Assembly (NCBI RefSeq): GCF_030864355.1
Contig: NC_083398.1
Location: 1,984,001-2,048,000, forward strand
Reading direction: 5' to 3'
From: Cutaneotrichosporon cavernicola
Taxonomy: Eukaryota; Basidiomycota; Tremellomycetes; Trichosporonales; Trichosporonaceae
DNA: 64,000 nucleotides
The translations under genes and the position numbers were made by a program. Positions 5,435 through 61,254 of this stretch are shown piece after piece. Each line of letters opens with the position of its first letter. The stretch's first letter is position 1. Under the pieces are notes generated by a model. It was not told where the DNA came from, made no database searches, and saw only the letters and a program-made list of their open reading frames with translations.

Positions 5435-7372
5435 CTACCACCCCGAAAAGTCGCCAAAACCCCCCGGCTTGCGCTTCTTCTTCTCAACCCCAAACTCGAC
5501 CGGCGCAACCTTGGGCGTCTTGGCCTTAGCCTTGGCGATATACTTGCCAACCCCATCATCCTCAGCTTTGCGTTTCCGAGCCTCCCTCTCCTCCCGACTC
5601 TCGCCCTTGGCCCCAAGATCCGTCCCGAGCCAAGTCGTGCGGTCCTTCTCGCGCTTCTCCCTTGCAGCAGCCCGCTTAGCCTGCGCCTCGGCGCTCTGGT
5701 CCGACCGGGCGACCTTGGCAGCCAACCGAGTCTGGTACTCCTCAAAGGGGTCCTGGAGAACCTGCACGCCGGTGATCTTGATCGTCTTCGTGGGTGTATC
5801 CCCTCCCGGCCGGACGGGGATACGTTCAACGGTATTCAACACGTCCTCACCACCGACGAGTTTGCCAAATACCGTATGTTTGTTGTTGAGGTGCGGCGTC
5901 TCGCGGAACGTAATGAAGAACTGCGAGCCGTTCGTGTTTGGCCCACTGTTCGCCATGGAGAGGACACCGCGCGCATCGTGCTTGAACGCGCCTTTGGCGG
6001 CAAATTCGTCCCGGAACGGCTCGCCCCAGAACGACTTGCCACCCCGTCCCGTGCCCGTCGGGTCTCCTCCTTGAATCTGATGTCAGACATACTACAGAAA
6101 AGACATACCATAAATCCAGGGATGAGGCGGTGGAATACGACGCCGTCGTAGTATCCCTTCTTGGCGAGCTGGATGAAGTTGTATACCGTCTTCGGGGCGC
6201 GGTCGCCGTACAGCTCGACGTTGAGGCCACCAAAGTTGGTCATGATCGTCGCATACGCGCGCGACTTTAGCCTGTCCTTGTCCTTTATTGGCTTTGACAG
6301 CTCGTCGAACATGACTAATGTCAGTTTTCACTGGGCTACGTAACTCACGCTCTTCCTCGTCATACATTGCGCGCTCGTTCTTGACCTCTGGCCCCAAAGT
6401 TGTGCTCGTCAGCGACGCGGCTGCTCGCCCAGTCGTAAAGTTGGTTGCGTTATCTGGCGTCAGCTCGACAATGCAAGAAAGCTCACAGGCCAGAGTCTCT
6501 TTCCTAGGCTGGACCACGACGCCCTCCTTCTCCTCCGGTGCCGGCGACGGCGACGGCGACGGGTTCTCAGACCGTGTCTGCAGTCAGCTACAATCATCAT
6601 AAATAGCTCACCTTCTCCGCAAGCATCTTGAGCACCTTACTCGCTCCGCCCGCCGCATTAACGTTGATCCCCTTCAATGGATCCGCCATATCCTCCTCTG
6701 CCGTCAGCTACCACCAAGCCACAAGCTCACGCGACACCTTCTTCTGGTTCTTGACATAGTCAAAATCACGCGCATCGCGGTTCTTGGCATTCGCCGGATC
6801 CTGGATTGTGATGATATCCTCGCGGGTAAACGGCTCGTCGCTAACCAAATCCCGCCAAGTCTTGGGCTTGATAGCGAGGAGCTGGAGCGAAGCCATATCG
6901 AACACATTCCCTGTATTCTTGAGAAAGACGATATGCACATGGTTGGAGAAGACCTTGAACGTGATCGGGTCGTGATAGTTCCCTTCGACGTTCTTGGAGA
7001 AGTTGAGCTTGAGCAGCTGAGATGTATTGAGCGGCTTGCCGGTCACGGGATCTGGGTTAGCGCAACCTAGGCGTGACGTACTGGTCTTGAACTTGCGCAC
7101 GTAAGGGACAATGTTGACAAGGTCGAAGACGTCGGCCCTCCGTTCTTCACCGGGCTTGGTATCTTGTATGACTGCGACGGGGTTCTTGAACGGCTGGAGC
7201 GAGAGGGCACAGCAGTCACTGTCGTTAGGTTGATTGGAGGAGAGACGTACAATGGAAGCCGCATCATCTCCTGCCGGCCCTTCTCGGCCGCCTTGCCACC
7301 ACTCGAGGCCGTGTGGCCGCCAGCAGCGTGCTCGGAGTACGTGACGTAGATCTTGTCCGAGTTGTTACCCAT
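5435..7372 (-). CDS. PPIL2: U-box cyclophilin, peptidyl-prolyl isomerase-like 2
   Basis: A nuclear cyclophilin with an N-terminal U-box, linked in other fungi and animals to the spliceosome and to ubiquitin ligase activity. The N-terminus '[15 protein letters not shown]' and the following '[16 protein letters not shown]', '[17 protein letters not shown]' and '[15 protein letters not shown]' match the family's U-box half. The C-terminal cyclophilin domain shows '[20 protein letters not shown]', '[16 protein letters not shown]', '[17 protein letters not shown]' and '[18 protein letters not shown]', with the catalytic-region Arg in FHR and the QFF motif present. The tail is Lys/Arg/Glu-rich and ends 'GGFGDFSGW'. 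About six short introns break the gene. It is divergent from the ALG11 gene, with only 244 bp between start codons and a CACGTG palindrome in between. Confidence 0.9.
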
Positions 7373-7482
7373 GGTGGAGGCGGTTAGGTGGGGGTGGTGG
7401 AGGCGAAACAACAGTTACATTCAATGTAAGAAACCCCGCCACCCAGATTCCCAAGTTTCCAAGTTTCCCACGGTAAGCTTCC

Positions 7483-7488
7483 CACGTG
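7483..7488. promoter_or_regulatory. CACGTG palindrome between PPIL2 and ALG11
   Basis: A perfect CACGTG in the shared promoter, 129-134 bp before the ALG11 ATG and about 111 bp from the PPIL2 ATG. Fungal bHLH factors of the Cbf1 type bind this core. The same element recurs at similar distances in other promoters of this window. Confidence 0.5.
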
Positions 7489-7616
7489 GACGTGGACTGA
7501 TGACGCGTACCCTCTCTAGCTTACCTCCACCTGACGCGTTCAACTGGACAATTACCAGAATCCATCGCTACTCACCACCACCACACTCTTTGTCACTCTC
7601 ACACGTCCCACTCACA

Positions 7617-10600
7617 ATGGCAGACCTCAGTACAGAAGTACTGGTCAACTACGCCATCTTGTATGGCTACTTTGCCATTATCTTGGCCTGTTTCGCTGCC
7701 GTCATCGCTTCCATTCTCGGTCAGAGTCCTACCAAGAAGGCGGTCCTCAGTGGTCGTCCGTTCCTCTTCATTCGGTGTGCCGTCGGAGGGCTCATATCAA
7801 CATGGTACTGTGAGTGGGTTGATGGGGCTTGATTGGGCTGCTCATGAATTCCCTTGAGCAGTTCTTCCAGGTTGAGCAAGGTGCTGACATACAGTCATGA
7901 TCCAGTTCATGAAGGTGAGTTGAGCCGATGTGGCAAGTCGAGGGCCGAAAGCTGCATGAGCACGAGGGCTGTGCAGGGATGATCACTTCTTTTACATCTC
8001 TCTGAGTAGATTCGAGGAAGGATGACGTACCCTCCCATGCTTGCGCTGACCACAGTGGTCGTACACATCGTACATCTCCGTCCGCCCTGGTGCTACGGCA
8101 GGCGACTGGCTCGTCAACACATCGCTCTTTGCCCAAGCCTGGCGAGCGGTCTGTGTCGGCGCCCCCAACTGGTGGTGGAGCAGCTGGATCTGCACCGCCG
8201 CCATTCTCTTCGCAGCCATCATTTGGTCTGAAAGTGAGCTAGACAGTGCTTATGACGCGGCTGACAGCAGCATTCCGTCGCGGAATCAAGTACCCCGCCG
8301 TGTACATGATCCTCGGGCAGCTCGTCGCCATCTCGGTGGCGCTCGCGCTCTTCCTCACCGCCGTGTACCTCCATGAGCCGATCCCGAACCGAAAGCCGAA
8401 AGCTCCCCTCATGCTCTGCTTCCTGCTCATCTCAGCACAGGTTGCCATGTTTATTCTCCCCGAGCTTGCGGACCAGCCAGCGTTCGTGTATGTCCTCGCA
8501 TTTATCCACGGTGCGGTAGTGATTCCGCTCTTCTTCATCCCCAAGAACGGGCGGAACGAGTCAGGCTCGCTCCCGTTTGGCGGCCTCTTGCCACTGCTTG
8601 CTGTCCTCGCGGCAATCATCCACACCTTGACCACTATTCGTGTCCTGGACATGCTCCCGTCCGCCAAGTGGCTTCCGACCTACCTGTACAGGATCTTCCT
8701 CGCCCACCCGGCCCAGGCCTCGGTCTCCTCTGATGTCGTGTGGGTTGTAATTACCTCCATCACGTGGTGGTTCGTCAAGGGCTCCATAACGAGCATCATC
8801 GTCAAACTCTCCCTTCTCGCCGCTGCCGTGGCCGTTGCTGCGGCGCGACACTTTGGTGTGAACTGGTACTTTATCGGCAGCTGCGTGCCCATCCTTGCGC
8901 TTCTTGTCGTTGCTGGCGCGGCTTTTGTCCTGTCCAACGTACGCTCGCGCAACGACGAGAAGCGCGCGGCAGTCCTGGAGAAGCTGGGCATCAAAGAACA
9001 GGGTGTGATCCCTGGCACATCAAAGGAGCCACCTACCATGGCCAAGAAGCGTCTGGTTGTAGGATTCTGGCACCCGTACTGGTACGCTGCGCCAGCCACG
9101 AGATTTGCTGACCACAGTAATGCCGGAGGTGGTGGTGAACGGGTGTTGTGGACCGCGATCGCGTGGCTCCAGCGCGTTCACCCCAAAGTCGTCATCGTCG
9201 TTTACAGCGGCGATTACCCAGCTGCGTCGAAAGAAGAGATCATTGCCAAGGTCAACGTGAGTTGACATCCCCGACCTCTCTAACCTGCAGGATCGCTTCT
9301 CGATCAAACTGTCCCCAGCAACCCTCGCTTTCATCCCGCTCCGATCGCGGCATCTCATCTCCGACACCTACTGGCGCCGCTTCACGCTTCTTGGCCAGTC
9401 CTTCGGAAGTGTGCTGCTAGCGTGGGAAGGGTTGTGTAGTCGCGACGGTCTGTGGGGTGACATCTTCATTGGTAAGCCTGAAGCTTGTCCGTTTTGTCTG
9501 ACGAAAGACTCGATGGGTTACGCCTTTACGTTACCCTTTGTGCGCCTTGTTGCGGGTGGAGACATCGCCATAGGCTCGTACACGCACTATCCCACGGTCA
9601 GCAGCGACATGGTTAAGCGTGTGCGTGAGCGTGTAGCCGGAGTTGAGAATGGCGGTGCCTCAAGCAGCGCGTTCCGAACATGGGCTAAGCTTGTGTGAGT
9701 TAGGTTGGCGCTTGTTTCCGAATGTGATTTGACGGAACTAACACACGTCAGGTACTATAGGATGTTCACGTCGCTGTACTCGGTGGCGCTGTTGTTCTCG
9801 CAGCACACCATGACGAACTCGTCGTGGACTCAGGCGCATATCAAGTCGCTGCTCAACGACGGCCGCAAGTCGCTGCTGGCTCAGCTGCTGCTGATGGACG
9901 ACGCTTCGCGGAATGCCGGTGACACGGCGCGGGTGTGCGAGGTAGTGTTCCCGCCGTGTGACACGGCGGAACTGTCCAAGCTGGGGAACCTTGATTCTCG
10001 CAAGCGCCAACTGGTATCGTTGGCCCAATTCAGGTGCGTTGCGACGAGGTTGGGTTGGAGCTTGCGCTAATCGTTAGGCCTGAAAAGGACCAGGCCAAGC
10101 AACTGCAAGCATTGAGCACCTTGTTCGAGAAGCACCCCGAGTACAAGACGGGACCTGGTGGAATCCATCTCACGTTGATGGGTGGATGCCGCGACGCCGC
10201 TGACGAGGCCCGTGTAAATGGTCTTAAGAAACTCGCGTCCAAGCTGAATATTGAGGTGAGCCGAGACTTGGTTGCAGAGCAACCCTAATTTGAAGGAACA
10301 GGTGACGTTCCTGGTCAACGCGCCGTACCCCGACATTGTTGCCCACCTGAGCACTGCGTCGGTCGGCCTGAACACGATGCAGGACGAGCATTTTGGCATT
10401 AACGTTGTGGAATTTATGGTTGGTACAAGGTCACGCGGAAAACCCGGCTTCATTAAGTGTGACGCTGACGCCGAGGCCGCTGGGCTTATTCCTATTGTTC
10501 ACGCGTCTGCTGGACCTTTGCTGGATATTGTCGTGTCCCATGACGGCAACAAGACAGGTACGTTTACAGTCTCACGCGCCGTGGAGCAAATGTCACGCTC

Positions 10601-10915
10601 CGGGACGAATCCAGGCACGCACACGTAGCCATGCTCCGAAGGTTGACGGGGCCGCTGACTTTAGGTTTCCACGCAACCGACGCCGAGTCGTTTGCGGATG
10701 CTATCCATGAGGCTCTGTCGCTGTCTCGGCAGCAGGAGCTGGCGATGCGGCGGGCGGCCCGCTCGCTTGCCCGTGACAAGTTTTCGGAAGCTGTGTTTGA
10801 GCGAGCCTTTGCTCGGGGATGGAGCCGCCTTGCGCGTGCGGCTGGCGGCGCGGAGTTTGCTGAGGATGTTGGGGGAGCGGGAGGCAAGCTCAAGGCGCCG
10901 GGTCGACCGTCATGA
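7617..10915 (+). CDS. ALG11: ALG11 mannosyltransferase with an in-frame N-terminal multi-pass membrane domain
   Basis: The C-terminal part is ALG11, which adds two alpha-1,2-linked mannoses from GDP-mannose to the dolichol-linked oligosaccharide on the cytosolic face of the ER. Removal of a 36-nt intron (9082-9117) yields 'GFWHPYCNAGGGGERVLW', the family hallmark. Later come 'FIDSMGYAFTLP', 'GSYTHYPTVSSDMV', 'TMTNSSWTQAHI', 'VNAPYPDIVAHLSTASVG', 'LNTMQDEHFGINVVE' and 'AAGLIPIVHASAGP' (glycosyltransferase family 4). Before it, the same frame (8246-8940) codes for several hydrophobic helices, such as 'VYMILGQLVAISVALALFL' and 'LLPLLAVLAAIIHTL', and short exons from 7617 on add about three more. 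The family normally has one N-terminal anchor, here 'CVPILALLVVAGAAFVL'. No ATG lies in this frame between the membrane helices and 'MAKKRLVV' at 9038, so ALG11 with its anchor has no separate start. Exon borders at 7806-8100 are not fully settled. Confidence 0.85.
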
Positions 10916-25752: not shown

Positions 25753-28300
25753 ATGGCCGTCCAGCGTAACGTTCACCAGCCGCTCCTCTTCGAGTGCGCT
25801 TGGGAGGTCGCAAACAAGGTCGGCGGTATTTACACCGTCATCAAGACCAAGGTTCCAGTCACTGTCAAGGAATATGGAGACCGGTGAGTAATCCTGACCA
25901 TCCTGACTGTCACCGGTGCGATGGCGTGTGCGCCCCCCGTCCAAAGTGGTTGGTACGAGGCGCACACGCACTGTCCTGCACATGACGACTCTCACCAAGC
26001 GAACAAGCACTGACATCAAGTTACTGCCTTATCGGGCCCCTTAGCTACAAGACTGCCCCCATCGAGGTCGAGTCGATGGAGCCGTAAGTTGCCGACTCTG
26101 TGGAGCCGAGTGGAGCGATGGTGCCATGTGCTAATCTGCAGCGAGCCGGGATCGCCGATGGAAGGCACTCTCAACGCGATGCGCGACCAGGGCGTCAAGT
26201 ACCTCTACGGCCGTTGGCTGATTGAGGGTGCCCCTACAGTCCTTCTCTTCGACACGGCCAGTTGCTACAACCGGTACGCTAACAAGCTCACAACGAGCAG
26301 GAGCTGACCAATAGCATGGATGAGTGGAAGGGTGACCTCTGGAACGTGGCTGGCATTCCGACGCCCCCCACCGACCACGAGACCAACGAGACGCTCGTGT
26401 TCGGCTACATGGTCGCATGGTTCCTTGGCGAGGTGAGCTGCGACCCCGAATTCAGCTGAAACCAGTTCTCTGGCCGCTGCCTTGACACTGCCATTATTGC
26501 CCACTTCCACGAGTGGCAGGCTGGTCTTGCCATTCCCCTCTGTCGCAAGCGCAAGATTGACGTCACCACCATTTTCACCACCCACGCCACGCTCCTCGGC
26601 CGCTACCTTTGCGCCGGCAGCGTTGACTTTTACAACAACCTGCAGTACTTTGACGTCGACCACGAAGCGGGCAAGCGCGGCATCTACCACCGGTGAGCTT
26701 GAACGTGTCCGAGTAGCAGCTGACGGCAGCTACTGCATTGAGCGCTCAGCGGCGCACTGCGCCGATGTGTTCACGACCGTCTCGCACATCACGGCGTACG
26801 AGAGCGAGCATCTGCTGAAGCGCAAGCCTGGTGAGTAACTCGGCCGTAACCTCCATGAAGCTAACATCAGACGGTGTCCTCCCCAACGGCCTCAACGTCG
26901 TCAAGTTCGCCGCGATGCACGAGTTCCAAAACCTCCACGTCAAGGCCAAGGAGAAGATCAACGACTTTATCCGCGGCCACTTCTACGGACACTACGACTT
27001 TGACCTCGACAACACGATCTACATGTTCACCGCTGGCCGGTACGAGTTCCGCAACAAGGGTGTCGACATGTTCATCGAGTCGCTCGCTCGCCTCAACCAC
27101 CGTCTCAAGGCGATGAACTCTAAGATGACCGTCGTAGCGTTCATCATCATGCCCGCGGCAACCAACTCGTACACGATCGAGGCGCTCAAGGGTCAGGCCG
27201 TCACTGGCCAGCTCAAGGACGTTGTCAAGCAGATCACGGACAGAATCGGCAACCGTCTCTTTGAGCACGCGGCGCGGTACGACGGCACGCACGGTACCGA
27301 GGTCCCCAAGGCCGAGGACCTCATGTCGGCCGAGGACCTCGTGTTGCTCAAGCGCCGCGTGTATGCACTCAAGCGCAACTCGCTCCCACCTGTTGTCACC
27401 CACAACATGCAGGATGACGACAACGACCCCATCCTCAACCAGATTCGCCGCGTGCAGCTGTTCAACCGCACTTCGGACCGCGTCAAAGTCATCTTCCACC
27501 CCGAGTTCCTCAACTCGAACAACCCCATCCTCGGCCTCGACTACGAGGAGTTTGTGCGCGGCTGCCACCTCGGTGTCTTCCCGTCGTACTACGAGCCGTT
27601 CGGCTACACGCCCGCCGAGTGCACTGTCATGGGCATCCCCAGCGTCACGACCAACTTGTCTGGTTTCGGCTGTTTCATGGAGGACCTCCTCGAATCGCCC
27701 GAGGACTACGGCTGCTACATTGTCGACCGTCGCGGGCAGGGTATCGACGACTCTGTCGAGCAGCTTACGCAGACGCTCACCGAGTTTACGACCAAGTCGC
27801 GTCGCCAGCGCATCAACCAGCGTAACCGCACCGAGCGTCTTTCGGAGCTGCTCGACTGGAAGTCGCTTGGTCTCGAGTACGCCAAGGCGCGCCAGCTCGC
27901 TCTCCGCCGCGCATACCCCGACTCGTTCAACGACGACGAGCCCGAGTTTACGGGTGTCCAGAGGGTCGGTGTACCTCTCTCTGCGCCCGGCTCGCCGCGC
28001 TACCGCTCTGGCATGATGACTCCTGGCGACTATGCGACCCTCACCGAGGAGATGGAGCACCTGAACACGAGCGACTACAAGGGTGTCAAGCACCCGTGGC
28101 ACTGGAACAAGGATGACAGCGATGAAGAGGACGGCTACAACTTCCCTATCGCGGGACTGAAGCCTCGCGGGCGCTCGGACTCGCTGGCATCGGCCATCTC
28201 GGGCACGATGACGCCGGGCGGCAAGCACTTCCTGGATGACAAGGACCTGGAGCATGCCGACAAGAAGTTGGAATCGCACTCGTCTACGAACGGAAACTAA
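25753..28300 (+). CDS. GSY1: Glycogen synthase
   Basis: Transfers glucose from UDP-glucose to the non-reducing end of glycogen in the cytosol (glycosyltransferase family 3). The N-terminus has '[20 protein letters not shown]', the UDP-glucose-binding K-x-G-G region. Further marks are '[20 protein letters not shown]', '[19 protein letters not shown]', '[20 protein letters not shown]', '[20 protein letters not shown]' and the C-terminal '[19 protein letters not shown]' with the catalytic Glu pair, then '[16 protein letters not shown]'. The regulatory arginine cluster is visible as '[20 protein letters not shown]'. The tail carries likely phosphorylation sites ('[18 protein letters not shown]', '[11 protein letters not shown]'). 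Five or six short introns lie in the first 1.1 kb and the last exon is long. Full length for the family. Confidence 0.96.
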
Positions 28301-46908: not shown

Positions 46909-46999
46909 AGCTCGGGCTGGGGATCGAACCCAGGTTTCCACAGGTGACGATGGTTGGTGTCCATCAAAATGAGGCGTACTGCCTCTGTACGACCCGAAC
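46909..46999 (-). tRNA. Probable intron-containing tRNA, tRNA-Gln(UUG) is the best fit
   Basis: Read on the minus strand, the acceptor arms GTTCGGG and CCCGAGC pair over seven positions (one G-U). The T arm CTGGG-TTCGATC-CCCAG is perfect and contains a good B box. The D arm has GTAC on both sides of the loop and an A box differing at one position. A TTTTGAT segment fits a Gln UUG anticodon loop. With a roughly 20-nt intron after position 37 the anticodon stem pairs at four of five positions, with one U-U mismatch. That mismatch, and the forced intron, leave the isotype uncertain; it might be a pseudogene. Confidence 0.5.
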
Positions 47000-52637: not shown

Positions 52638-55600
52638 ATGTGGGACAAACGTGATGACAAGTGAGTCTAATCTTCCTTTTGTTGATGCTGGCAATCACCA
52701 TCACTCATGTCCACCATATCACCCAGCCCGCCGCCAAGCCCCACGATGCCAGCGCGTCACCTGAAGAACACATGCTAACTCTTGCTAGCACCGACTACTC
52801 CCAAAACACGCTCGATGCGGCCGCAACAGCCTCAACGGCAACGTTTGTCACTGCGTTTGCAACCAACGCGGCTGTCGCTGGCGCTCAGTTCCTTGCATGG
52901 ATAATTATTCGTGGGTGGATCAAGGCAGTGTGAGTGTCGTGGACTCGCGCCTTGCTTTTCGAACATTTAAGCTTGAATGGCGGTGGCTGGCGATGGCTTG
53001 GGTCCCATTCTGTCTCACACATCTGACTCTAGTTATGAGCCTCGGACATACATCCCCGCGCGTGATAAGCAAGCCAAGCCACTGGGCAAGAACATCCTCA
53101 AGCCAATCTGGACGATCATCACTGGTGGGTCAAGACGGACAATGAACCAAACTGACTGCAGCCGACCCCAAGGACATCTTGAGAAAGAATGGTGTCGACA
53201 CCTACCTCTTCCTCCGCTTCGTGGCGATGCTTTGTAAGGCCCTCGTACCCATCTGGTTCGTGTCCTGGGTCATCCTCATGCCCGTCAACGCGGCGCGCAT
53301 GAGTACAGGCATGGACGGCCTGGACCAGTTCACCTTTGGAAACGTCGCCAAGAACCAGCAGAATCGATACTGGGCTCACATTATCCTTATTTACATGTTC
53401 AACGGTGTGTTCCTATATCTGCGCGCGTTTGACTAATTGCATAGGGTGGTGGTTCTACCTCATCTGGCGGGAGATGGCACACTGGCTCGAGATCCGGCAG
53501 CAGTACCTCGTCTCGCCAATGCACTCGAAGCTGGCGCAGGCGAGTTCAATCTTGGTCACCGGCATTCCCGAGCACCTCATGGAGGAGCGGGCACTGGCAA
53601 AGCTGTTCTCACACCTTCCAGGCGGTGTGAAGCGCATTTGGCTGGTCCGCAACCTTAAGCATATGCCTGACGTATACGACCGTCGCGAGACTGCGTGCAA
53701 GGTCCTCGAGACGGCACAGGTCGCGCTCATCAAGAAGGCCCAATTGCGCAAGAACAAGCTCAGCCGGGAAGCCAAGAAGGCGACTCACAAGGGCCGTCCT
53801 ATCCCGGAGCATTGTACTGCTAGCGCCAACCCTCCCAATGAGGATGGAACGCCGCTCTCCCTCGCCGACGAGCTTGTGCCCCGCAAGGACCGTTCCTTGC
53901 ATCGCATCAAGCCGAAATGGGCGCCTTTCGGACTCGGGTTTTTTGGCATTGGGAAAAAGGTCGACGCCATCGAGTGGGCACAAAAGGAGATTGTCGAGTG
54001 CACTGCAATTCTCAAAGAGGAGCGCGAGAAGCTCGCAAGAGACATTGACACGCCTGGATTCAGCAATGAGAACTACCCCGCTAGAGCGTCCGCATTCATC
54101 CACTTCAACCAGCAGATCGCCGCGCACATGGCAAAGCAGTGCCTGACCTACCAGCAGCCGTTCCGCATGAACTATCGCTTCATCGAGCAGTCGCCTGAGA
54201 ATGTCATATGGGGCAACATGAGGCTCAACGCGTACGAAATCAACGTCCGCAGAGCCATTTCGTACGCGATTACGGGCGGCCTCATCTTTGCATGGGCCCC
54301 GCTTACCGCTCTAATCGGTGGTCTCGCTAACGTCGTGACCCTCGTTGAAAAGTGGAAGTGGCTCTCGTGGCTCATTGGTGACAGCTTTGGCAAGCAGCTT
54401 CTCCAGGGTATCTTCACCGGTATCATTCCTCCAGTCCTTCTTGCGCTTCTCACCATGATCTTCCCGGCTATTCTGCGTATTCTGTCGACCTTTCAGGGGA
54501 CGGTGAGCAAGACAGAGGTCGAGCTTGACGTCATGGGCCGCTACTTCGTCTTCCTCGTCATCGTGAGTGAACCTCGGCTGCCCTGCTAACAGCTTAGCAC
54601 GCTTTCTTGATCACGACGCTGGCGTCTGGTCTCGTTGCAGCCATCAAACCAATCATGGACAACCCGGCTTCGATTGCATCGATTCTCGCCTCTAATCTCC
54701 CGACGGCCTCTACGTTCTTTATCACTCGTATCCTCCTGCAGTTCACTGGCCTCGTCGGCAACCTCCTTCAGCCGGTTACGGTTATTCTCTATTACGTTCG
54801 TGTGATTCTCGGCGGCAGTACTCCCCGAAAAATCTTCAACTCCCGCTACCAGCTCGAGGAGCCCGAGTTTGGCACAGAGTACCCAAACGTCACTGTCTAT
54901 GCCAACATCAGTAAGCGCTCTGAACAACTCAACCTGACCGCAGTGATCACGTACATGATCATCTCACCTGTCATCAACGGCTTCGGCGCCTGCTTCTGCA
55001 TCCTCGCGTACTTTGTGTACAAGTACCTCTACCTATGGGTCATGGACCTTCCACCGTCGGCCGACACGGGTGGTCAGTTCTTCCCCAAAGCTGTCACCCA
55101 GATCTTTGTCGGCTTCTACATCCAGGAGGTCTGTCTCTGTACCCTCTTCTTCCTTGCCCGCAACGAGCAGAACAGGGTTTCTGCGCTCCCGCAGGCCATT
55201 CTGATGATCGTCCTGATTGTCATCACTGTAAGTTGTCTACAGGGGTCTGTTTAACACTTCCAGGCAGCTTTCCAATGGCTCATCAAGACTATGTACAATC
55301 CTCTCCACGTCTCCCTTCCTCTGTCTATGGCGGACCTGTCGTATGGCATGCCCGACGCGAATATGGAACTCAAGCTCGCCGAGTCCCGCGACGAGATTAT
55401 CCCCCAAGCTGACCAGGAGAAGCAGCTTAAGTCCGAGGACGTCCGCTGGGACGACAACGCGCAGAAGTGGACGGAGGGAGCAAGTTTGGGTGACGACGTG
55501 GAGTGCACCACATCGACGACTTCTGCAGGCGAGTCGACATCACCCTGCAACGTGACGCCCGAGAAGAAGCCGTCGTATAGCGAGGACGATCCACACCCGC

Positions 55601-56038
55601 AGCCGTTCCCTCAGCAACAGACTGAGTCGTTCGAGCTTGCGGAGATGGGTGACACCAAGCGGACAAGGAGCCGGTCACGCCGCAGCTCACGCATCTCTCT
55701 GCGGCGCTTGAGTAGAGTCTACGACGACGAGGAGCCCGAAGAGGATCCCGAGGCCCAGTACTTTGCGCTTCCCGGTGGACCTGGCGTCATCATCCACAGT
55801 GAGGATGACGCTGACGACCCGAGCGCCTTCTTCCACCCAGCGACCAAGGAACCTCAGACCCCGATCTGGCTCCCTGTGGATGAACTTGGCCTCGGTCGCA
55901 ACCAGAATAGTGCCAACCTCGCTTTGGGCGTGAGGTCGAGCACGAAGAACGCTACAATGGGTTCCAAGGTGAAGCTGGTGAGCTGGGCATCGCTGACAAA
56001 CAGGGTCAGGTCAAGATCATGGGCGTGCCGCCCGAGTA
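52638..56038 (+). CDS. CSC1/OSCA-family calcium-permeable channel (RSN1/DUF221 type)
   Basis: A large multi-pass membrane protein of the OSCA/TMEM63/CSC1 family, stress-gated cation channels of plasma or internal membranes. The order of domains is complete: the RSN1 N-terminal membrane part ('TFVTAFATNAAVAGAQFLAW', 'LRKNGVDTYLFLRFVAMLCK', 'IILIYMFNGWWFYLIWREMA'), the cytosolic PHM7 part ('SPMHSKLAQASSILVTGIPE', 'DVYDRRETACKVLETAQVAL') and the seven-helix core ('DVMGRYFVFLVIHAFLITTL', 'FFITRILLQFTGLVGNLLQP', 'ITYMIISPVINGFGACFCIL', 'CLCTLFFLARNEQNRVSALP'). The C-terminal tail is acidic with a 'RTRSRSRRSSRISLRRLS' basic patch that could be phosphorylated. Exon 1 is tiny ('MWDKRDD'). The last short intron joins 'SKVKL' to 'GQVKIMGVPPE'. 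Confidence 0.93.
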
Positions 56039-56305
56039 GTTGTACATCTATGTATCTTGGGATTGGGAGTAGGTGTACATCATTGCTTATAGTTTGCATA
56101 TGCATCTCATGGGTGTGAGGGAGCACGAGCAAGGTGGGATGTCTCTAATCTCTGAGATGGTGTTCAATACATTAGAATAGTGGCCTGTTGACGGAGATCC
56201 GACCAACTCCGATGACGTGCCATGGATCATGTCGTGCGATCCATGTTCGATGTTGGATTCATCTACTACTCCACACATTCTCTCACTCCTTCATCGTCGT
56301 CCATC

Positions 56306-58488: not shown

Positions 58489-61254
58489 ATGGCCTACTCA
58501 GTATGCCTCTACACGTTAGACCTCTCTCCTTCCATGTCCACCTTCACCAAGGACGGGTCCCACCTCTCCCTGGCACAGGAATACATTGCTCGCCTAGCCG
58601 AGCCCAAGATCCAAAGCGGGCGGAAGAGCGAGCATGTTGGTCTCGTGTCGTTTGGGGGACGGACACATAACCAGGCCCATTCGGCTTGGGTCGCGGAACA
58701 TGGAGACGACGATCCGCCTTATACCGCGATTTCGAGCGATGTGGCCATCCAGAGCGCCAAACCTAAGATGCTCGAGGTGCTCATGAACCTCGAGGTTGGG
58801 GAGGAGGCGGGGAATCGTGAGCCTCTCTCTCTCTTTAATTCCCACCACTCACCCTCTAACCCCAGCCGTCGGTGCCCTCATGGTCGCGCTGGACATGATA
58901 GAGCAGCATAAACATACGAAACGGTGGAGTATTGAGATTAAGCTCGTTACGGATGGCGAGAGCGTTTTCGTGCAGGAAGAATACGAGGATGCAATGACGC
59001 GGCTTGATGCGCTTGGAGTCAAGCTCACCGTCATGTAAGTTGCTTCTCTGCGGTGTGCTGACAACAGCGGAATCGGTTTCGACGATCCCGCCGACCCGAT
59101 TGACAAGACCAAGTCCAAGCCCAAACGACTCAGCGAGAAGTTCTGGCGCGCCTTCATTAATGGCTTGAACGAGCAGATGTCCAAGACTACAGACAGCGAC
59201 CTCTTCCTTCCCCGCCTGCTCACTTTCGACTCCGAACTGGAAGAGGCGCGCCGCCCGCATCCGGCCACAACCGAGGGCACGGTCAGCGGGATCCACCTCT
59301 ACATCGGCGCGGCGGGGGTGGATTCCGACGCGGCCATCTCGATCCCAATGCAGTACTCCAAGGCGACGATGAAGGCACGGCCGCCGAGCTTGAGCAAGAC
59401 ATGGAAGACGGCGGTCGACGTACAGGCCCCGGCACGGGGCACGGAGGCGTCCCAGCTCCTCTCGCAGATTGAGAGCCAGGGCGCTCTGGTTGGGGCTATC
59501 TCAGGCAAGATCAACCGCCACATGCTGTACTTTATCCGCAGAGCCGAGGCTGCCTCGTTTCAAGCAACGCAGTCACAGCCACAGTCGCAGCGGATAGAAG
59601 ACGACCCGGACTTCATACTCCCAACTCAAACCCAGACCCTAACCCAAACTGTGGAGGAGGAGCCAGTAGAGAAGGAGGATCTCGTCAAGGCGTGGCGCTT
59701 CGGTTCGTCACTCATCCCCGTCGAGGCAGACACGTTCGAGCCACTTCCCACTCAGAAGGGCATCGAGGTGCTCGGCTTCATCCCACAGGCGCATGTACGC
59801 AAATACATGCTGATTGGGGAGGTGCGATACCTGTGGCCTGACCTTGCGTCGGGACGCGCACAGATCCAGTTCTCGGCGTTCGTGTCGGCGCTCTTCACGA
59901 CGGGATTGGTGGCGGTTACCCGCTTCGTGACGCGCGACAACGCCGAGCCTGCACTCGGGGTTGCGATTCCGCAAATCGACTATCTTGGCGACGACAAGAG
60001 GTTGGACTTGATGTACTGGATCCGGGTGGGTCCGGGTTTAGGAGGCGCTGACCCCAGTTACCCTTCGCGGACGACGAGCACAAGTTCTGGTTTCCCAGTT
60101 TGGACAAATACGTCTCGACAACAGGCAAGGAGATCACGGAACATCCCTTCATCCCGACAAAAGAGCAATGTGCGCTTATGGACGAGCTGGTAGCGGGCAT
60201 GGATCTGGACACTGTGCCGCCTCCGGGAGAACAGTCTGCCGACTCGGCGCGTTCCGATTCTGAAGAGGAAGAAGACTTTGGCACGTGGTTCTCCTCTGCG
60301 CGCGCGGTCAACCCAACCATCCACAGGATAAAGGAAGCGATCCTACACGCGTCGCTGACCGACGGGCCTCTCGGCCCGCCACATCCCGAAATCACGCAAT
60401 ACTTCTACACGCCAACCCAAATCGCGGAACGGGTGGAGAAGGTGTCTGGACGCCTCAAGGACGCACTGGACATCAAGAAGGTGCCACTGCGCCAGCGACG
60501 CCAGGCTGGCAAGGAGGTGATGAAGGAAGACGAGGGGTTCTTGGACATTGACGACTTGTTTGGTGCCGGACCCAGTAGTTCTGGGCCGAGCAATGTGGTC
60601 CAGGACAGCCCGAGCAGTGTGGTAAAGGACGAGCGGACTAGTTCGGTCAAGCCCAATGGGGCCGATGACGGGGTCAAGGTCGAGGGCGGGGATGAGGATG
60701 GGGATACGAAGCCCAAGGCTGAGCCCAAGGAGCCAAAGATCGAGCCTAAATCCGAGCACACTTCCCCTGTCAAGGCCCGGCCCAAGCCCGGCCGGCTCAT
60801 CAGCAACGAGAACCCGCTGGAGGATTACCACCGCCTTGTACAGGCCGAAGGGGATATGTTCCGCAAAGCAATTACAGACCTCGCCGCTGTTGTGCGTGAG
60901 AACATTGCGGCTAGCTTTAGCAGGCAGGCGTTCCCGCTAGCGCTGGAGTGTCTTGAGGCTATGCGGGCGACAGCGTTGACCTTTGAAGAGGTCGAGACGT
61001 ATAATGCGTAAGTAGCTGGGGGTAGTTCTGAAGAGAAGAGCAGGTAGAGGAGAAGAGAATGCTGACACCAGCGCGGTCGACGAGCTGGAGAAGACTGTCA
61101 AGGCGGCCGGGTTCAAGCACCTGGATTTCTGGAAACGTAAGTTCCCTATTTTCCCGGCCGGCTAACGACAGACTTTGAGAAGGCAGGAAGCAGGGTCGCG
61201 CGTATCTCGGAGGACGAGGCCGAGGCCGCGCTCGAGGAGGAGGAGTACGATTAG
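58489..61254 (+). CDS. YKU80: Ku80 DNA end-binding subunit
   Basis: Partner of Ku70 in the ring that binds double-strand ends in non-homologous end joining and helps protect telomeres. The N-terminal von Willebrand A-like part reads 'SVCLYTLDLSPSMSTF', 'IEIKLVTDGESVFVQEE' and 'LDALGVKLTVIGIGFDDPAD'. The beta-barrel region has 'VEKEDLVKAWRFGSSLIPVE', 'KGIEVLGFIPQAHVRKYMLI' and 'FSAFVSALFTTGLVAVTRFV', a standard Ku core. The C-terminal arm follows with 'NPTIHRIKEAILHASLTDGP', a Lys/Glu/Pro-rich low-complexity linker, then a helical domain: 'DYHRLVQAEGDMFRKAITDL', 'ALECLEAMRATALTFEEVET' and 'AVDELEKTVKAAGFKHLDFW'. It ends 'DEAEAALEEEEYD'. Four or more short introns. Confidence 0.92.

Follow-up and report, generated by a model that had tools for sequence, protein, structure and literature searches.

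A lineage-wide fusion of ALG11 to a nine-helix, DUF2834-like membrane protein in the Tremellales and Trichosporonales

Results

A gene of Cutaneotrichosporon cavernicola joins ALG11 to a polytopic membrane protein

Within a 64,000-nucleotide stretch of the C. cavernicola genome (referred to as the window; positions below are those of the window), the gene at 7617-10915 on the forward strand encodes a single protein in which nine predicted transmembrane helices precede a complete ALG11 that retains its own anchor. ALG11 attaches the final two mannoses that the N-glycan precursor receives before its passage across the ER membrane, yielding the lipid-linked heptasaccharide. The fusion, its conservation and the strong constraint on both halves are established here at the level of sequence; the explanation that we favour, and hold to be somewhat probable, is that of a real and old fusion tying ALG11 to a basidiomycete ER membrane partner, which probably handles its dolichyl-linked substrate or product.

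The gene comprises 12 exons separated by GT..AG introns and encodes 874 amino acids, beginning with the ATG at 7617 and closing with the stop codon at 10913-10915. Exon 1 (7617-7809) carries the start codon, helix 1 and the beginning of helix 2, with an N-terminus nearly the same as that of P0001, the protein of Cutaneotrichosporon sp. HIS471; exon 2 (7895-7914; 20 bases) lies inside helix 2; exon 3 (8056-8233) encodes a conserved loop, WL..LF.QAW..V..G..WWWS, and helix 3; and exon 4 (8271-9081) spans helices 4-9, the junction, the ALG11 anchor and the start of the catalytic domain. Exons 5-12 follow on the same strand at 9118-9256, 9291-9471, 9508-9694, 9752-10033, 10078-10255, 10296-10418, 10476-10557 and 10665-10915, the last including the stop codon. 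The starts of exon 4 (8271) and exon 10 (10296) were set by comparison with P0001, an earlier model having had 873 residues, and exon 4 has two candidate acceptors three bases apart, 8271 or 8268. The spliced protein is identical to P0001 in 838 of 874 aligned columns.

The intergenic region at 7373-7616, to which no strand is assigned, is presumed from a reading of the sequence by eye to be the promoter of the fusion gene. This upstream region of about 240 bases is shared with a divergent gene on the reverse strand (5438-7372), which encodes a cyclophilin-type peptidyl-prolyl isomerase domain at 5438-6327; its N-terminal part resembles a U-box PPIL2/Cyp8-type protein, but no Pfam match was found for 6711-7364 at E 1e-5. 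Elsewhere in the window, the forward strand bears a long open frame for a glycogen synthase (26819-28297; PF05693, 669.5 bits), a CSC1/PHM7-type 10TM channel in pieces (53303-56115; PF14703, PF02714, PF12621) and a Ku70/Ku80 beta-barrel domain (59039-60190), and the sole tRNA found by ARAGORN, a tRNA-Lys (TTT), lies on the reverse strand at 46909-46999.

The enzyme half is a complete ALG11

The first 40 residues of the ALG11 part (8864-8983, residues 329-368), which form the anchor helix and the beginning of the linker, align with the N-terminus of unfused ALG11. They are followed by ALG11_N (PF15924; 9053-9851 with introns; E 1.1e-77) and by Glycos_transf_1, the C-terminal half of the catalytic domain, which includes EHFGINVVE (9981-10762 with introns; E 6.7e-21), all on the forward strand. 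When residues 388-873 of the 873-residue model were scanned against Pfam, these two domains scored 261.3 bits (cut-off 29.8) and 75 bits (cut-off 26.4), respectively. The E-x7-E motif and the glycine-rich HPYCNAGGGG motif, presumably both of GT-B/ALG11 type, are present in the spliced protein, and the best matches in a structure search with the full model were glycosyltransferases such as MshA and BshA, which we take to be of the GT-B fold (E down to 4.1e-12). By its domains and motifs, the fused enzyme is thus identified as ALG11, which adds two alpha-1,2-mannoses to Man3GlcNAc2-PP-Dol. Its anchor and R..N..R linker align with the N-termini of free ALG11 from Naganishia and Agaricomycetes, so that a whole ALG11 appears to have been joined behind a whole membrane protein. 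With nine further predicted helices ahead of the anchor, the protein departs from the single transmembrane segment expected of ALG11 and represents a variant architecture. A search of the genome (20.2 Mb, 8 contigs), in which the best candidates were scored, turned up no further match to the membrane part or to ALG11.

The reading frame is coding throughout the junction

A first-pass annotation of this DNA had proposed either a real fusion or two genes with a hidden boundary, and had described the frame 8246-9265 as running without a stop. The frame is indeed open, over 8243-9265, but 8246-8270 is intron, and HPYCNAGGGG appears only once the short intron at 9082-9117, itself open in frame, has been removed. 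Codon log-odds, calculated for exon 4 in overlapping 120-base windows with a codon table derived from the other exons of the fusion gene, were positive for the coding frame in 12 of 12 windows, including the junction, and negative in 12 of 12 for the other two frames. Between 8651 and 9060, the only ATGs downstream of 8651 itself are an out-of-frame one at 8733, which the annotation had placed near 8732, and the in-frame one at 9038 (MAKKRLVV). The accompanying claim that no in-frame ATG separates the helices from MAKKRLVV is valid for the stretch that matters, after 8651; an in-frame ATG does exist at 8651, at the end of helix 7.

Of the 27 fused relatives described below, 21 lack a methionine from the start of helix 9 to the anchor, and one of the 27, P0002, lacks one as far as HPYC; an anchored free ALG11 would therefore have no AUG start in these proteins. 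A hidden gene boundary at the junction, the second of the two possibilities raised initially, was accordingly rejected as very unlikely in view of the Met-less relatives, the coding signal running through the junction and the architecture that the relatives share. The first possibility, a real fusion of ALG11 and a membrane protein, is borne out by the 27 relatives, by the grouping of the fused ALG11s and by the lack of a match to either part elsewhere in the genome.

The fusion is shared by one lineage

Among the best 120 of 271 ALG11-type matches, 27 relatives cover at least 91% of the query and have the fused architecture. Most of them are database gene models, and predictors sometimes merge neighbours. 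Organism names are available for 26, namely Cutaneotrichosporon, Vanrija, Cryptotrichosporon, Kwoniella, Cryptococcus, Tremella, Naematelia, Kockovaella and two Tremellales without genus; all 26 belong to the Tremellales or Trichosporonales, three of the genera having been checked in the taxonomy and the others being placed there on our own assumption. Unfused ALG11 proteins assigned by name to the Tremellales or Trichosporonales are absent from these best 120 of 271 matches. The ALG11 of two Naganishia (P0028 and P0029; Filobasidiales, taxonomy checked) is without the membrane domain, as is that of mushrooms; three of the listed models from mushrooms (P0056, P0071, P0099) carry extra sequence or domains of other kinds and are probably merged gene models.

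In a midpoint-rooted tree of 49 ALG11 catalytic parts, comprising the 27 fused and 22 selected unfused proteins, the fused ones form one group (97/95; one change, a value reached in 0 of 500 shuffles), to which Naganishia is the next to attach, at 100/99. The tree supports a single origin of the fusion. A further source of sequences is metagenomic: in all five predicted proteins inspected, out of 13, the membrane domain continues to GF[WF]HP[YF]W, through the junction and into an intron. Two of the metagenomic proteins (P0127, P0130), which are 35-40% identical to the membrane part of the window protein, have GFFHPYW or GFFHPFW at the junction, and the fusion may thus occur in lineages as yet unnamed.

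The membrane part also exists alone. A profile search returned 132 matches, of which the best 120 were listed; the named stand-alone ones come from mushroom-forming fungi and their kin, presumably Agaricomycetes. A separate search added the smut relative Ceraceosorus guamensis (Ustilaginomycotina, taxonomy checked). None of the best 120 of 132 in the profile search is named as Ascomycota or Tremellomycetes, in a search that needs shared short words and could miss matches elsewhere. On two stand-alone proteins the names 'alpha-1,3-glucosyltransferase' (P0167) and 'putative alpha-1,2-mannosyltransferase' (P0191) were discarded as transferred, DUF2834 alone having been found in them. Both ALG11 and the stand-alone membrane protein are listed for 19 species, and in all 19 their contigs are of unequal size; for 13 of them both entries are single-member, single-contig clusters, which places the two genes on different contigs, and for the remaining six a cluster has more members or contigs. 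On this distribution, an ancestral unfused state with a later, derived fusion is the most likely history. Orthologous loci with two distinct genes, which the first-pass annotation had named as evidence against a fusion, were found only outside the fused group, as expected if the fusion is derived.

The membrane half is constrained and resembles DUF2834

In the AlphaFold2 model of the fused P0001 (pLDDT 91.1, pTM 0.68), the helices span residues 6-34, 46-80, 107-134, 139-164 (broken), 177-196, 201-219, 233-258, 277-299 and 303-325, with the anchor at 329-368, the pTM being such that the relative placement of the parts is not fixed by the model. The prediction is thus of nine helices plus the ALG11 anchor, rather than the approximately eight counted at first. 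The long helices of the stand-alone Mycena protein P0135 (pLDDT 86.7, pTM 0.88) were read as the same nine. A structure search with the membrane domain gave no clear match to a solved fold, and the positive charges of the loops do not decide the topology. From what is known of ALG11, the membrane domain is inferred to lie in the ER, with the catalytic domain at the cytosolic face; a cytosolic C-terminus following nine helices and the anchor would also place the N-terminus in the cytosol.

Retention of individual residues was counted in the 27 fused proteins and in 97 stand-alone ones with a length of 300 residues or more. At each of 24 positions, among them Q147, S152, H210, those of the HPAQ.S motif (276-281) and D285, the residue is retained by no fewer than 26 of 27 fused and 89 of 95-97 stand-alone proteins, the lowest values among the latter being those of A161 (89/97) and W111 (89/96). 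These positions were preselected as invariant or nearly so in 15 sequences, so the counts describe retention and are not a test against chance. Mean pairwise identity among P0002-P0027 is 54% for the membrane part and 69% for the catalytic part. Since the 24 positions are retained in at least 26 of 27 fused proteins, the membrane part probably keeps a function of its own.

The sole Pfam match of the N-terminal part is DUF2834, with 15.1 bits in the early model (residues 1-387) and 22.5 bits after correction of exon 4 (residues 1-328). The latter score corresponds to a first DUF2834-like unit at residues 51-160, covering helices 2-4 (7767-8359, forward strand, spanning introns; E 1.4e-4), and falls just short of the cut-off of 22.9. 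All 15 members of alignment A3 match DUF2834 (PF11196) at E up to 0.1, the best at 3.5e-8, and all six stand-alone proteins scanned exceed the cut-off. The membrane part therefore appears to belong to DUF2834 or to lie near it. We found no paper on the function of DUF2834 among those whose titles and opening lines of the abstract were considered.

A second, weaker unit is suggested at residues 239-320 approximately, covering helices 7-9 (8594-8839, forward strand; 13.5 bits). In this second half of the window protein TrpP scores slightly higher (14.4 bits) than DUF2834, whose score reaches 25.1 bits in the relatives. Pfam places two DUF2834 stretches in four of the six stand-alone relatives scanned. 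When C-terminal halves were scanned alone, DUF2834 was matched at E up to 1 in 8 of 9 and 10 of 10, that is in 18 of 19 related rather than independent sequences, with three of 19 over the cut-off; it was matched in none of ten reversed halves, one of which matched another family (MASE2) at E 0.0034, so single matches near E 0.001-0.01 mean little. A direct profile-profile comparison of half with half found no significant internal repeat (P 0.058-0.17). The membrane part may thus contain two diverged DUF2834 units, at helices 2-4 and 7-9, which on the predicted topology would be inverted, there being five helices between their starts.

Bacteria have single DUF2834 genes: in the phylum of a Picosynechococcus genome, 8 of 59 genomes have a match at E up to 0.001 and 7 of 59 one over the cut-off. 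The matches lie in open frames of 110-174 residues, of which three were read as sequences, and these leave room for one unit only. The bacterial proteins are thus small and apparently single-unit, and the fungal family may be a duplicated form; dual topology in the bacterial proteins would be a natural conjecture.

Discussion

On the evidence presented above, the gene most likely has a single origin, in the common ancestor of the Tremellales and Trichosporonales, where an in-frame joining placed a stand-alone basidiomycete membrane protein of nine helices ahead of a complete ALG11 and turned the anchor of the enzyme into helix 10. One gene would now give one 874-residue ER membrane protein, in which the membrane domain holds the ALG11 catalytic domain at the cytosolic ER face. 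More than a mere anchor, this domain would be a tethered partner that handles the dolichyl-diphosphate glycan beside the enzyme, either by delivering Man3GlcNAc2-PP-Dol to it or by receiving Man5GlcNAc2-PP-Dol from it and handing this on. The mushroom counterparts would work as a pair of unfused proteins. That a gene which is separate in mushrooms was joined once to ALG11 is a classic sign of proteins acting near each other, although fusion alone is no proof of two functions on the same molecule; handling of the dolichyl-linked glycan is inferred as the simplest task that the two halves could share. The Alg11 of S. cerevisiae is reported to span the membrane with a single N-terminal segment and to be active in vitro without it (PMC6472349), and a constrained extra domain on such an enzyme suggests a function beyond anchoring. 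A core role of the membrane domain in the pathway is unlikely, as its named stand-alone relatives are only Basidiomycota among the best 120 of 132 matches.

In short, the catalytic half is ordinary and the membrane half is what calls for explanation. The window protein shares with S. cerevisiae Alg11 the ALG11_N and glycosyltransferase domains, the HPYCNAGGGGERVLW and EHFGINVVE motifs, the anchor and the R..N..R linker, but has nine further helices before the anchor where PMC6472349 gives the yeast enzyme a single N-terminal segment. Its membrane part is similar in length to the stand-alone mushroom DUF2834-type proteins (P0134-P0136, P0138-P0140 and others) and shares their near-invariant residues, and P0135, the one modelled, likewise has nine helices; these are uncharacterised products of separate genes, not joined to ALG11. 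The bacterial DUF2834 proteins match the same Pfam profile as the fungal domain but have room for a single unit. Fusions of Alg13 and Alg14 in other eukaryotes, as reported in PMC4973528, also occur within the dolichol-linked pathway; they unite two known parts of one enzyme, whereas the present fusion unites a complete enzyme and a protein not assigned to the pathway. Literature searches, mostly outside subscription journals, for Alg11 together with Cryptococcus, gene fusion or Tremellales listed no description of this fusion.

The most serious alternative, which we regard as possible if distinctly less probable than a tethered partner, is a passive fusion: a membrane domain with an older ER-membrane role that has nothing to do with ALG11 would have become linked to the enzyme by chance while retaining that role, and the fusion would persist since neither half is harmed. 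Each half does keep its own conservation, the yeast enzyme is reported to work in vitro without its anchor (PMC6472349), and the position of the unfused genes on contigs of unequal size in 19 of 19 mushroom species suggests no obvious functional cluster. A neutral fusion might, however, be expected to undergo occasional fission, and no unfused ALG11 is named from the Tremellales or Trichosporonales among the best 120 of 271 matches; nor was a free copy of the membrane part found in this genome. Both observations weigh only weakly against a passive origin.

We consider it doubtful that this domain serves as a lipid transporter or scramblase to which ALG11 directly hands Man5GlcNAc2-PP-dolichol for its move to the lumen. 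ALG11 makes the last cytosolic intermediate, and the two possible DUF2834-like units have opposite predicted orientations; inverted paired units are an arrangement common in transporters. Moreover, the main carrier of M5-DLO scrambling is called controversial or open in PMC11365447 and PMC7809446. Rft1 is nevertheless present in this genome, and the purified protein is reported, in PMC11182771, to be sufficient for translocation. Named stand-alone relatives restricted to Basidiomycota among the best 120 of 132 matches are hardly those of a general scramblase, no fold match supports transport, and the two halves, compared directly, show no significant repeat. Like the fusion protein, Rft1 is a polytopic ER protein, acting just after ALG11, but it is encoded by a separate gene here, and the membrane domain matched only DUF2834 in Pfam at the thresholds used. 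If, as seems equally doubtful, a duplicated, inverted-repeat DUF2834 transporter did take Man5GlcNAc2-PP-dolichol from ALG11 and help it across the ER membrane, with mushrooms using the pair unfused, the fusion would be a synthesis-and-translocation machine and would give a first function to DUF2834, its small bacterial members included. Finally, it is most improbable that an anchorless ALG11 is made on its own, in addition to the fusion or in its place, from a hidden promoter or from an internal start at Met 387 (9038). The ATG there is in frame and its ACCATGG context is favourable for a start, but a methionine occupies this column in just 9 of 27 relatives, P0002 is free of methionine from the start of helix 9 to HPYC, and the coding signal is continuous across the junction.

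As for other steps of the pathway, Alg6_Alg8 and DIE2_ALG10 had no match in this genome, though Rft1 and ALG11 were found, but the control genomes were likewise without matches, so that the genes may have been missed. Absence of Alg6/Alg8 and of Alg10 is reported for C. neoformans in PMC12113280 and PMC4973528, in agreement with this result. We found no link between this pattern and the fusion.

Returning to a real fusion with a tethered membrane partner, its presence throughout a lineage of yeasts and jelly fungi points to an unrecognised and unstudied membrane family as a likely neighbour in the step at which the product of ALG11 crosses the ER membrane, and would offer the first clue to what DUF2834 does. 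The fused lineage includes Cryptococcus, in which the N-glycan pathway is described as unusual (PMC12113280).
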